Source of the DNA: Halorientalis marina
Lineage (GTDB): Archaea; Halobacteriota; Halobacteria; Halobacteriales; Haloarculaceae
DNA length: 64,000 bases
Assembly: GCF_023028345.1 (NCBI RefSeq)
Contig: NZ_CP095487.1
Coordinates: 3,534,001-3,598,000 of the forward strand
Reading direction: 5' to 3'
Position numbers and translations under genes: made by a program. The first letter of the stretch is position 1. Each line of letters begins with the position of its first letter. The notes beneath the pieces are model-generated. The model was not told the DNA's origin. It was given only the letters and a program-made list of their open reading frames with translations, and made no database searches. Positions 952 to 47,791 of this stretch are shown here, piece by piece.

Positions 952-2469
952 TCAGTAGACGGCGTCGCGGATCTCGTCGTCGAGGTCCTCGAACTGGTCG
1001 AGGTAGGCCTCGCGCTCGGCGCGCAGGTCCGCGAGTGCCTCCTCGTGGTCGTCGAGGTTCGCAGCCACGTCGAAGTCGGTCACGTCCATCCCGGGCACCT
1101 CGCCGGGGACGGTGAGGCCGGTGGCCTCGTCGTGGGTCCACTCGACGGTCCCGCGAGCGATCTCGCGCAGGAGCGTCACGGTGTCCTCGACGCCCACGTC
1201 GCGGCCGCCGACGGAGCCGGTGTTGAGGACGTAACACTCGACGTCGAGGTCGGCGATGAGGTCGCGGAAGCGGTTGCCCTCCGCGCCCTCCGGGCCGACG
1301 ATGAAGGGGTTGGTGCCGACGACGCGGATGGACTCCCCGGCCTTCGAGGGGTCGCCCGCGCTGGTCTGGACGGACTCGCCGAGCATGAACGCGACCGCAC
1401 CCTGTGCGGGGTCGAGCCTGGCGACCGGCGGCATCGCCGGGTTCCGGGTGATGAAGAAGACCTGATCCACGTCCGGGAGGTCGATCTCCTCGCCCGCGGA
1501 GGAGAGTTCGGAGCGCTGGATGACCGCGCGACCGTTCGAGGTGTGGCGGTCGGAGTCGAAATCGACCGTGCCGTCGTCGGCCACGTCGACGTTCTCCAGC
1601 ACCGCGGACTCGTCGGTCGCGGCGCCGTGGAGCTGTGGTTGCTCGCTCTCGTCGAGGCCGATGGTCTTGATGTACAGCCCCTGGCCCTCGCTGCCGGCGA
1701 CGGTGCCGTCGGGCAGGAGCGCACACACGTCGTCCTGGCGCATGGTCGCATCCTCGGGGTCGTCCAGCCGGAGGCCGTGGGCCGTCAGCGTGGACTTGCC
1801 GGTGCCCGAGAGGCCGAGGAACAGCTGGCCGACGGTGTCGAGGTCGTCCTCGCCGTCCGCGCCGCGCTGGAGGCGGACGCGCTTGCTGCCGGCGTGGAGG
1901 CCGAGTCCGCCCTGCCGTTTCGCGTCGAGCATGAACAGGCGGAGGAACGACTTCTTGGCCTCGCCGGTGTAGTCCGAGCCGAGGACGGCGGTAAAGCCCT
2001 CGTCGGGGAGGACGCGGATGGCCGTCTCGTCGGCGTCGGGCACCTGGACGGTGTAGAAGTCGGGCTCGCGGTCGCCCCGGACGGGCTCGAACAGTTTGGC
2101 CCAGGCCAGCGCGATGCGGCCGTACTCCTTCGGGACGTAGTAGCGACAGACGTACGAGGCGTCCTCGTGGCGCCCCATCTGCCGGTCGAGACAGACCATC
2201 TCGGTCTCCTCGGTCGCTGTCACGGCGTCGGCGACGTGGGCGTAGTCCGCGTCGTCGAACTCGTGGTCGACGGCGTTGCGCGTGCGGTCGGCGCTTCGCG
2301 AGCGGTAGTCGCTGACGTACGACGGGGACCCGAACTCGGTCGTCGTCTCGAAGTGACTGGAGAACTCCCGGAGCTGGTCGAGCGACGGATCGTAGATGAC
2401 GTTGTCGGCAGTCTCCGGGTCGGGCAGGGCCGACACCGGTTTCTGGACTGTCATCCCGGACTCTGACAT
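952..2469 (-). CDS. pckA: Phosphoenolpyruvate carboxykinase (ATP)
   Basis: ATP-dependent PEP carboxykinase converts oxaloacetate and ATP to PEP, CO2 and ADP, the entry step of gluconeogenesis in the cytoplasm. The 505-residue length fits the family. The kinase P-loop GLSGTGKST is at 219-227 and the metal-binding aspartates are in RQDDVCA at 244-250. A longer reading to 2523 exists, but I start at ATG 2469. A TATA-like TATTAAAT centred near 2500 lies about 31 nt upstream, so the start would sit at or just after the transcript start, and the longer reading would begin upstream of the promoter. It is transcribed alone. The neighbouring putative sugar-acid dehydratase suits a role in carbon flow between C3/C4 acids and sugars. 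Confidence 0.95.
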   Translation of the reverse strand: MSESGMTVQKPVSALPDPETADNVIYDPSLDQLREFSSHFETTTEFGSPSYVSDYRSRSADRTRNAVDHEFDDADYAHVADAVTATEETEMVCLDRQMGRHEDASYVCRYYVPKEYGRIALAWAKLFEPVRGDREPDFYTVQVPDADETAIRVLPDEGFTAVLGSDYTGEAKKSFLRLFMLDAKRQGGLGLHAGSKRVRLQRGADGEDDLDTVGQLFLGLSGTGKSTLTAHGLRLDDPEDATMRQDDVCALLPDGTVAGSEGQGLYIKTIGLDESEQPQLHGAATDESAVLENVDVADDGTVDFDSDRHTSNGRAVIQRSELSSAGEEIDLPDVDQVFFITRNPAMPPVARLDPAQGAVAFMLGESVQTSAGDPSKAGESIRVVGTNPFIVGPEGAEGNRFRDLIADLDVECYVLNTGSVGGRDVGVEDTVTLLREIARGTVEWTHDEATGLTVPGEVPGMDVTDFDVAANLDDHEEALADLRAEREAYLDQFEDLDDEIRDAVY

Positions 2470-2676: not shown

Positions 2677-2844
2677 TCAGGAGAGGTCGGGGACCAGCGG
2701 CGCGTCGGCCTCCGCGAGTACTTCCTCGATCCCGGCCGTGTTCTCGCGCGCCCGCCCGCCGTCGGGCTGGACGCGTCGCGTGGGCAGTTCCGGAACCATC
2801 GGGTCCATTCGTCCGTCCGCGTCAATCGGAGGCCGTTCGATCAT
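2677..2844 (-). CDS. Small conserved peptide, copy A of a tandem duplicate
   Basis: A 55-residue peptide of unrecognised family. It is about two thirds identical to the peptide encoded at 3008-3172. Both carry DADGRMDPMVPE, then PTRRVQ, then DGGR, and both end in DAPLVPDLS. I see no cysteines, signal peptide or membrane segment. I place the start at ATG 2844 because the homology begins there. An in-frame GTG at 2874, 23 nt from the TATA-like GTTTTATG (2893-2900), would add ten residues and could be a leaderless start. The conservation of two neighbouring copies on the same strand is the main evidence that it is coding. Function is unknown; a regulatory peptide or a modified-peptide precursor is conceivable but nothing nearby looks like a maturase. 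Confidence 0.65.
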   Translation of the reverse strand: MIERPPIDADGRMDPMVPELPTRRVQPDGGRARENTAGIEEVLAEADAPLVPDLS

Positions 2845-2903
2845 GTGTATCCCGGACGCGTCGTCCGTACTCACCCCTCCGGCTCGGTCCTACATAAAAC
2901 ATA

Positions 2904-2923
2904 ATGGTCGAACATGATGTTTG
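2904..2923. promoter_or_regulatory. Palindromic upstream element, copy A
   Basis: The 20-bp sequence ATGGTCGAACATGATGTTTG occurs here and again, identical, at 3215-3234. It contains the perfect palindrome AACAT-G-ATGTT (2911-2921). The palindrome centre is about 19 nt upstream of the minus-strand TATA-like element (centre near 2897) of peptide gene A. That position suits an activator site or another regulator site. The regulator is not identifiable here. Confidence 0.6.
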
Positions 2924-3007
2924 TGAGTTGCTACCACGCTGACGGGCGACTCGGTCGGCCGAAAGCGGCGGCTACCGGGCGTGAGTGCGAGAAAAGTCGG
3001 GTCTCAC

Positions 3008-3172
3008 TCAGGAGAGGTCGGGGACCAGCGGGGCGTCGACCTCGTCTACGAGTTTCGCCGCGGACGACTCGTCGCGGATGCGTCCACCGTCGGTCTGGAC
3101 GCGTCGCGTGGGCATCTCCGGAACCATCGGATCCATTCGTCCGTCGGCGTCTGTCGCAGGTCGGTCGGTCAT
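3008..3172 (-). CDS. Small conserved peptide, copy B of a tandem duplicate
   Basis: A 54-residue peptide, paralogous to 2677-2844, with the same conserved blocks DADGRMDPMVPE, PTRRVQ, DGGR and the C-terminus DAPLVPDLS. The middle (about 32-45) is variable and one residue shorter. ATG 3172 is the only in-frame start, because stop codons lie immediately upstream. A TATA-like GTTTATATTC is centred near 3207, giving a leader of roughly 10 nt. The 20-bp element at 3215-3234 sits upstream with almost the same spacing as in copy A. So the duplication, or selection, kept both the peptide and its control region. Function is unknown. Confidence 0.65.
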   Translation of the reverse strand: MTDRPATDADGRMDPMVPEMPTRRVQTDGGRIRDESSAAKLVDEVDAPLVPDLS

Positions 3173-3214
3173 CTGCTCTCACGACTACCTGTGGCACGGG
3201 CGAATATAAACTTC

Positions 3215-3234
3215 ATGGTCGAACATGATGTTTG
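3215..3234. promoter_or_regulatory. Palindromic upstream element, copy B, between divergent genes
   Basis: Exact second copy of the 20-bp element at 2904-2923, with palindrome AACATGATGTT at 3222-3232. It lies about 20 nt upstream of the TATA element of peptide B (minus strand). It also overlaps the possible start codons (3225, 3228) of the plus-strand zinc protein. A bound regulator could therefore act on both directions. This is inference from position only. Confidence 0.6.
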
Positions 3235-3527
3235 GCAGTGACTGTCACACGTGCGGCGACGGACCGAAGGCCGTGGCGGGCCAAGCGTGGGTGATGGACC
3301 TCGGGACGCCCCTGCGCCTCGGTGGAACGCACTACCTGACGGCGGTGTCGGTCGGCCGCGATCCGGACGACGAGACGGTCTGGGACTGTCCGGTCTGTGG
3401 CGGCCACGGCTACGCGGACGAGTGGCACCTCGTCGCCTCCGTCCGCGACACGGCGACCAGTCGGACGGCGACGTACCGGTACTGTGACGATGCGTGCCTC
3501 CGGGGCTGGCTCCGGACAGCGGTCTGA
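3228..3527 (+). CDS. Small cysteine-rich (zinc-binding?) protein
   Basis: A protein of about 99 residues, family not recognised. It has a CxxC near the N-terminus (CHTC), a central CPVCGGHGYADEWH and a C-terminal YCDDACL. That pattern suggests one or two zinc-binding sites of treble-clef or small CPxCG type. It diverges from peptide gene B and its N-terminus lies on the shared palindrome. The start is uncertain: tandem ATGs at 3225 and 3228 follow a TATA-like AATATAAAC by only about 20 nt, and ATG 3294 is an alternative that would drop the first CxxC. In copy A of the duplicated control region the same ATGATG is present, but the following frame does not continue as a similar protein. Confidence 0.55.
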   Translation: MFGSDCHTCGDGPKAVAGQAWVMDLGTPLRLGGTHYLTAVSVGRDPDDETVWDCPVCGGHGYADEWHLVASVRDTATSRTATYRYCDDACLRGWLRTAV

Positions 3528-46740: not shown

Positions 46741-47730
46741 ATGAGACGGTTCGCTCGGAGCGGCGCGCTCGCCGCGCTCGGTGGCGCATCGGCCGTGATG
46801 ATCGGCGGCGCAGCACTCGGCCTCCCGCCGTCCGACACGGGCACGTCGACGCTGTTTTCGCTCCTCGTGACGGCGCCCGGGCTGGTCATCGTCGGCGTCG
46901 TCACGGCTATCGAGACCGAGGCGGTGTTCGAAGCGGAGGCCAGTTGGGGAGTCGAGACGGCCGACGCCGCGACGGTGGCCGCCGTGACTCTGGGCGCAGC
47001 GACGACCCGACTGGCGGCCGTGGAACTGGCGCTCGGCGCCGTGGTCGCGGCCGCGGCCGTCGGCCTGCTCGCGGCGTGGCTGACCCCCGGGTACGCCGCC
47101 CCGGTCTACTGCGGGGCCTTCGTCGGGATGGCGTCGCCGGCGCTGTTCGCGAACCCCCTTGCGGTCACCGTGGCCGGCGTCGTCGCGGGCGTCGTCTTCG
47201 TGGCTGCCGACGGCGTGTTCACCGGCTACGGCGGGAAACTGGGGACGACCGCTTTCGTCGGCTGTAGCGCCGTCGCCGTCCCGCTCGCGGCCAGCGGCGG
47301 CACCGGAACGGTCGTCGCGCCGCCGACGGCCGCCGGGTTCGTCCCCGCCGGTGTCGTGGGTGCGGTCGCGACGTTCGTCGTGAGCGGCCGCCTCGACCGC
47401 GGCGCGGTGGAAGCGTCCGCGCTCGTCGGTCTCGCCGGTGGCCTCCTGTGTCCCCTCCTTTTCGGGGCCGGCGAGGCGCTGGCGGCCGTCGTGTTCTGTG
47501 CCTCCTTCGCCGGAATGGTCCACCCGCGCCGACTCCCCACGGCGTGGCTCGTGGCCCTCGCCGGCGCGTGCTGTGGGCTCCTCGTCGCCGCGACCGGGAC
47601 CGTCTTCGTCGGTGCCGGCGGCAAACTCGGCACCATCGCGTTCACCGCCTGCCTCCTCGTCCGCGGCCTCCGCCTCGCCGGGCAGGCAGTCCCGGGCTGG
47701 CTCCCGGTCGCGGCCCGGGCCGAGTCATAA
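46741..47730 (+). CDS. Multi-pass membrane protein with internal duplication
   Basis: A 329-residue, very hydrophobic protein with about nine membrane segments. Two segments are homologous: about 123-175 (YCGAFVGMASP ... GGKLGTTAFVGC) and about 252-304 (FCASFAGMVHP ... GGKLGTIAFTAC). The GGKLGT motif sits at 164-169 and 293-298, each ending a helix hairpin. This repeat architecture suggests a transporter or channel with two-fold pseudo-symmetry. No family is recognised. It may be co-transcribed with the HTH-10 gene. Start ATG 46741. Confidence 0.7.
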   Translation: MRRFARSGALAALGGASAVMIGGAALGLPPSDTGTSTLFSLLVTAPGLVIVGVVTAIETEAVFEAEASWGVETADAATVAAVTLGAATTRLAAVELALGAVVAAAAVGLLAAWLTPGYAAPVYCGAFVGMASPALFANPLAVTVAGVVAGVVFVAADGVFTGYGGKLGTTAFVGCSAVAVPLAASGGTGTVVAPPTAAGFVPAGVVGAVATFVVSGRLDRGAVEASALVGLAGGLLCPLLFGAGEALAAVVFCASFAGMVHPRRLPTAWLVALAGACCGLLVAATGTVFVGAGGKLGTIAFTACLLVRGLRLAGQAVPGWLPVAARAES

Positions 47731-47791
47731 ACCCCCCGTAGATTGCGGGGTGCGGACATGCATAATGAACAATAATGTATAATTGCGCCCC

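Follow-up and report, generated by a model that had tools for sequence, protein, structure and literature searches.

The window, by which we mean the whole 64,000-nucleotide stretch of Halorientalis marina DNA that was analysed, contains two short codirectional genes whose products are 67% identical, and the features that concern us here are the following.

952–2469, minus strand: pckA, PEP carboxykinase (PEPCK_ATP; PF01293, E=3.6e-53)
2677–2844, minus strand: peptide gene 2, 55 aa, ATG start, from the ORF list, MIERPPIDADGRMDPMVPELPTRRVQPDGGRARENTAGIEEVLAEADAPLVPDLS
2894–2923, minus strand: promoter element of peptide gene 2, CAAACATCATGTTCGACCATTATGTTTTAT, which matches a matrix trained on aceA promoters
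2904–2923, no strand assigned: copy 1 of the identical 20-mer ATGGTCGAACATGATGTTTG
3008–3172, minus strand: peptide gene 1, 54 aa, ATG start, from the ORF list, MTDRPATDADGRMDPMVPEMPTRRVQTDGGRIRDESSAAKLVDEVDAPLVPDLS
3205–3234, minus strand: promoter element of peptide gene 1, CAAACATCATGTTCGACCATGAAGTTTATA, a pair of ATCATKA-like repeats at 10 bp spacing, followed by TATA
3215–3234, no strand assigned: copy 2 of the identical 20-mer ATGGTCGAACATGATGTTTG, holding the ATG of the divergent ORF
3225–3527, plus strand: divergent small Cys-rich protein, 100 aa, marginal DUF7576 match

The first-pass annotation had described two genes of 54–55 codons, about two thirds identical, each with an identical 20-bp block upstream, and both descriptions hold: the ORFs are present, and the exact 20-mer lies at both sites, its identity ending exactly at 20 bp on both sides. 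Both copies sit just upstream of a TATA box as minus-strand elements, and the second overlaps the start of the divergent gene, as had also been remarked, with a possible ATG at 3225. Each peptide contains two copies of P[LMIVT][VI]P[DE]x, namely DPMVPE(M/L) and DAPLVPDL, so that in peptide 1 the doubled PxVPx[LM] motif reads DPMVPEM plus DAPLVPDL; an AlphaFold2 (AF2) model of this peptide has no helix or strand and a pTM of 0.18, consistent with disorder.

What has not survived is the palindrome. The 4.75-Mb genome has three occurrences of AACATGATGTT, two in the window and the third within a methyltransferase-like ORF, and we discount this third copy as a regulatory site, its position inside coding sequence pointing to chance. 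The proposal that the control element is palindromic fails on the orthologues, which do not keep the palindrome and read AACGTAATGAAAG or AACAATCATTAAC in its place, and we have accordingly abandoned it as an operator. Judged from the sequences, the conserved unit is instead a 30-bp element, in which two ATCATKA-like repeats lie one helical turn apart and abut the TATA box. The orthologue segments that end in BRE/TATA read GTATCAGGATAAATCATGAAGGTTTAT, TAACGTAATGAAAGACCATGAGGTTTA and TTGACTAACAATCATTAACGTTTAAG, with AACATCATGTTCGACCATGAAGTTTATA as their counterpart in the window, and the core is repeated at 10 bp spacing in most of them. A phased direct repeat, which is moreover common to aceA, thus takes the place of the site for a palindrome-binding regulator that had been envisaged.

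There had been some concern that the element might be a common repeat with no bearing on promoters, and this has been allayed: it is tied to the peptide genes. Within the genus the strict promoter motif is found only upstream of family members, all nine ATCATGAAGGTTTA sites in the eight genomes preceding one (reversed control, 0), and the same holds for 11/11 ATCATKANNNTTTAAG sites in 20 Natronomonas-group genomes. A search of 391 genomes with ATCATKAAGGTTTA returned 19 sites, of which 10 belong to members from the window's family; seven others stand before a different conserved peptide gene, that of genus g57, and the remaining two are in g28. The g57 peptide aligns at the same motif, weakly, in profile comparison (probability 3.5%, E=0.012). 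The expectation that gene and palindrome would be conserved together is therefore half right, since the gene is conserved with its element and the palindrome itself is not kept. Taken across haloarchaea, the recurrence of gene family, element and their pairing goes beyond chance.

The peptides form a genuine haloarchaeal family that has gone unannotated. A whole-genome search with a single query found relatives in 8/8 Halorientalis genomes, at 2–3 per genome, and in two further genera of the family (the named matches being Halorientalis, Halorarius and Natronomonas), which answers the question of whether homologues exist in other genomes; a profile search of 391 haloarchaeal genomes revealed a wider spread, and single Halorientalis genomes had as many as five matches. 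Copies are dispersed, several to each Halorientalis genome. Full-length members have [DE]xMVPEMP near the N-terminus, a central DGG and a C-terminal [DE]APLVPDLS, so that one short motif, [DE]AP[LM]VP[DE][LM], is present twice around a variable linker; the C-terminus is the best conserved part and the middle varies. These motifs are kept across genera despite synonymous changes and 3-nt indels, and dN/dS within groups of family members is 0.18–0.50, which settles in the affirmative the earlier question of purifying selection. Searches of Pfam, NCBIfam and PHROG with the peptides gave nothing convincing (in Pfam none of 29 family members had a match of any substance), PDB sequences and phage and plasmid records likewise yielded no convincing relative, and Rfam had no match. 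Across haloarchaea the peptides are predicted to be disordered, at 40–190 aa, and the kinship of the short peptides of the window's family with longer ones elsewhere is proposed on the strength of motifs, promoter and context, not full-length similarity. As a side observation, H. salina (locus L080) has a family member duplicated in tandem, promoter included, the two near-identical copies lying about 1.3 kb from each other.

It is the longer members that connect the family to metabolism. The back-translated motif [DE]AP[LMI]VP[DE][LF] occurs at 86 sites in 74 of 391 genomes (reversed control, 8), and outside the window's family, among 36 loci (33 from this motif scan and three found through the promoter), aceA lies directly downstream of the peptide frame in 35; the lone exception is a motif match inside an 837-codon frame. 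Peptide stop and aceA start mostly overlap, by 1–4 nt, and malate synthase follows aceA at some of these loci. We take the aceA genes to be haloarchaeal isocitrate lyase, an identity recognised from sequence by knowledge of the family rather than by profile search (30 protein letters not shown). For the genome of the window, aceA maps to C1:3244507-3245517, some 290 kb from the peptide genes, and since adjacency is a property of other families, the window's family having separate genes, we have not made it a criterion for the family at large. Where aceA and peptide are unlinked, the peptide is present in more copies. Two genera combine a single DAPLVP motif with a heptad-repeat helix. A different short ORF lies between promoter and aceA in the Natronomonas group (for example, MSDSQPRFPETRSED...).

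The second connection is the promoter. In the window's family, AATATTATCATTATNNNTCATAACNNTTTT is upstream of aceA in all genera read except Halorientalis, where it was not found in the aceA upstream region, so that co-regulation of peptide and aceA is not demonstrated for the window's own genome. A position weight matrix built from 22 distinct aceA promoters and nothing else, with dinucleotide shuffles as the null, was significant on 30/45 peptide upstream regions at 0.01 and on 37/45 at 0.05; peptide upstreams scored +2.1, against a mean of -29.7 and a maximum of -15.8 for unrelated upstream regions of the window. Both window promoters match this matrix in register (p=1/301 each). The BRE/TATA portion of the element is partly generic; with the TATA part removed, the window promoters retained p=0.004 (gene 1) and p=0.008 (gene 2) against shuffles, and 32/42 peptide promoters were significant at 0.05. 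The motif ATTAHCATTATNNWTC has 53 sites in 80 genomes, with one in the control, and those read outside aceA (genomes G067, G117 and G118) each have a short peptide with APMVP or VPAVP behind them. At three loci in genomes of the Halorarius and Natronomonas groups (L310, L311 and L312) we also saw a short conserved peptide, MTRYTDETNTGAPMVPIKTDES...LEETVFSHRL, after an aceA-type element, with VPAVP in L310. The best aceA-matrix site of the window itself, at 47755 on the minus strand, is followed by no plausible gene and is probably a chance match; its surroundings are AT-rich and close to the 3' end of the ORF at 46741–47730 (plus strand).

The third connection is co-occurrence. The window's family is represented by 86 genomes; of those with the peptide 29/29 have aceA, and of those without it 7/57 (Fisher 1e-16, on related and thus non-independent genomes, with a similar pattern when counted by genus). 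The seven aceA-positive genomes in which no peptide was detected mean that the peptide is not indispensable. The regulon link between the peptides and aceA is, in our opinion, strong: family, purifying selection, promoter sharing, operon linkage and co-occurrence with aceA are all demonstrated.

We consider it moderately probable that these are co-regulated, trans-acting, bivalent disordered peptides of the acetate/glyoxylate-bypass regulon, which tune the isocitrate node; expression on acetate, protein binding, the identity of the partner and the direction of the effect are what we infer. One acetate-responsive regulator would act via the shared element, in which the paired ATCATKA-like repeats, spaced by one helical turn, immediately precede BRE/TATA, and would induce isocitrate lyase and the peptides jointly. 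Two [DE]AP[LM]VP[DE][LM] copies on a flexible, variable linker might then engage a symmetrical protein partner, candidates being isocitrate lyase, isocitrate dehydrogenase and the regulator of the element, and this engagement would tune flux at the node or feed back on that regulator. Bivalency is suggested because the motif is doubled and because DAPLVP is joined to a heptad-repeat helix in two genera, the helix beside a single DAPLVP suggesting another route to the same end. In other haloarchaeal families the peptide is the first gene of the aceA operon, and in the Haloarculaceae it has become a scattered set of genes standing alone, among them the tandem pair of the window.

A rather less probable alternative, which we nevertheless take seriously, is that the peptides act solely on the transcription factor of the shared element, as feedback inhibitor or co-activator, and not on an enzyme. 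The element does precede nearly all copies, and there are more copies where aceA and peptide are unlinked; however, no regulator gene is constant among the neighbours. Less likely again is that the peptide ORF is a cis-acting leader of aceA, working by translational coupling or attenuation, with the stand-alone copies as relics that have kept their promoter: the 1–4 nt overlap of peptide stop and aceA start in many genomes is just what such a leader might have, but the Haloarculaceae copies are multiple and far from aceA, have kept their motifs across genera and are under purifying selection. Very improbable, we think, is that the genes encode secreted signals or the precursors of RiPPs, working with a regulator of the pheromone type, which is close to what the first-pass annotation had in mind when it wrote of a dosage- or signal-controlled system. 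Small multi-copy genes with one promoter type would fit; against this, the peptide sequences contain no hydrophobic or signal segment, the C-terminus is most conserved and the middle variable, which is not the pattern of a variable core, inspection of the genes beside the copies turned up no recognisable maturase or exporter, and there is the linkage to aceA. Peptides with an element of their own are supported, and the signalling role, for want of secretion features, is not. That the ORFs, short and without annotation match, are spurious frames in GC-rich DNA behind the conserved promoter of a non-coding RNA, for which the small hairpin in group A 5' regions might be quoted, is scarcely credible given amino-acid motifs that survive synonymous changes and 3-nt indels, a dN/dS of 0.18–0.50 and no Rfam match.

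If peptides that tune the isocitrate node are indeed what we have before us, then known regulators offer instructive comparisons. AceK is the isocitrate dehydrogenase kinase/phosphatase of E. coli, encoded with aceBA; like AceK, which controls the isocitrate branch point as the peptides are proposed to do, they are encoded in a glyoxylate-bypass operon, and unlike that large enzyme they are disordered and of 40–190 aa. A family that shares its control signal with isocitrate lyase points to a new control, exerted by small proteins, where central metabolism branches. A bolder version, which we offer as speculation that may well prove wrong, is that of a class-wide haloarchaeal control of the choice between TCA cycle and glyoxylate bypass, in which dosage-controlled bivalent disordered peptides, co-expressed with isocitrate lyase, fill in Archaea the role of phosphorylation by AceK in E. 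coli. CP12 and the GS-inactivating factors IF7/IF17 are small disordered metabolic regulators of cyanobacteria and plants, and the window-type peptides resemble them in being small and disordered, with a control linked to the pathway that they possibly tune; they differ in their motif, have no sequence similarity to them in the libraries searched, and their partner and effect are putative. Small proteins are reviewed in PMC7760959.

In the available portion of a study of Haloferax volcanii, growth on acetate requires aceA (PMC7746861); the isocitrate lyase gene of that glyoxylate bypass is the same as that downstream of the peptide, and the same portion is silent on any upstream peptide, promoter element or regulator for aceA. 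In haloarchaea the route is either the glyoxylate or the methylaspartate cycle (PMC5592240). The C(P)XCG micro-proteins, abundant small haloarchaeal proteins that excerpted reports present as cysteine-rich zinc-finger candidates (PMC10716476, PMC11241148), are likewise small and haloarchaeal, and the peptides, unlike them, are without such a cysteine motif. Open-licence literature searched for peptide strings and for HVO_1983-1985 held no description of peptide or element, and judged from this and the databases searched the family is previously undescribed. Its attraction is that it ties an unannotated small-protein family to a major decision of central metabolism in halophilic archaea, that of net growth on C2 compounds; it also puts forward a candidate cis-element of the acetate regulon and offers a concrete test of isocitrate flux control in Archaea without AceK, and it illustrates that very short disordered proteins can be traced class-wide by combining a short motif with a promoter.

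The neighbours are less informative. Those of the stand-alone copies (urease, ABC transporter, MinD-like ATPase, pckA) were considered as a clue to function and, since they are not constant, discarded as evidence. In the window pckA lies about 200 bp downstream of peptide gene 2, codirectional with it, and at some other Halorientalis loci it is a few kb from a group-B peptide; this gluconeogenic enzyme is possibly a mere neighbour, and its presence is circumstantial, consistent with gluconeogenesis from acetate. The divergent ORF at 3225–3527 matches DUF7576 with E=9.5e-6 and 25.8 bits, under the gathering cut-off of 27, and we found no evidence for its membership in the peptide system.

Some minor features of the 5' regions deserve recording. 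A small hairpin with a GNRA-like loop lies at 2845–2875, just before the start codon of peptide gene 2, and hairpins of the same type are present in group A 5' regions (L005-L010 and L053), for example, ACGGAC-GTGA-GTCCGT. The Natronomonas peptide promoters (L231-L238 and L128-L138) have an extra upstream inverted repeat, CGGCA-N5-TGCCG. In genus g57 (L119-L125 and L139-L146) the same promoter motif is followed by a conserved 8-codon mini-ORF, MQRV(V/A)LVC, and by the inverted repeat TCGTATGCTG...CAGCATACGA, both ahead of the peptide gene MSTSRRTT..DPVIPLQP..; mini-ORF and repeat together are possibly an attenuator-like leader.
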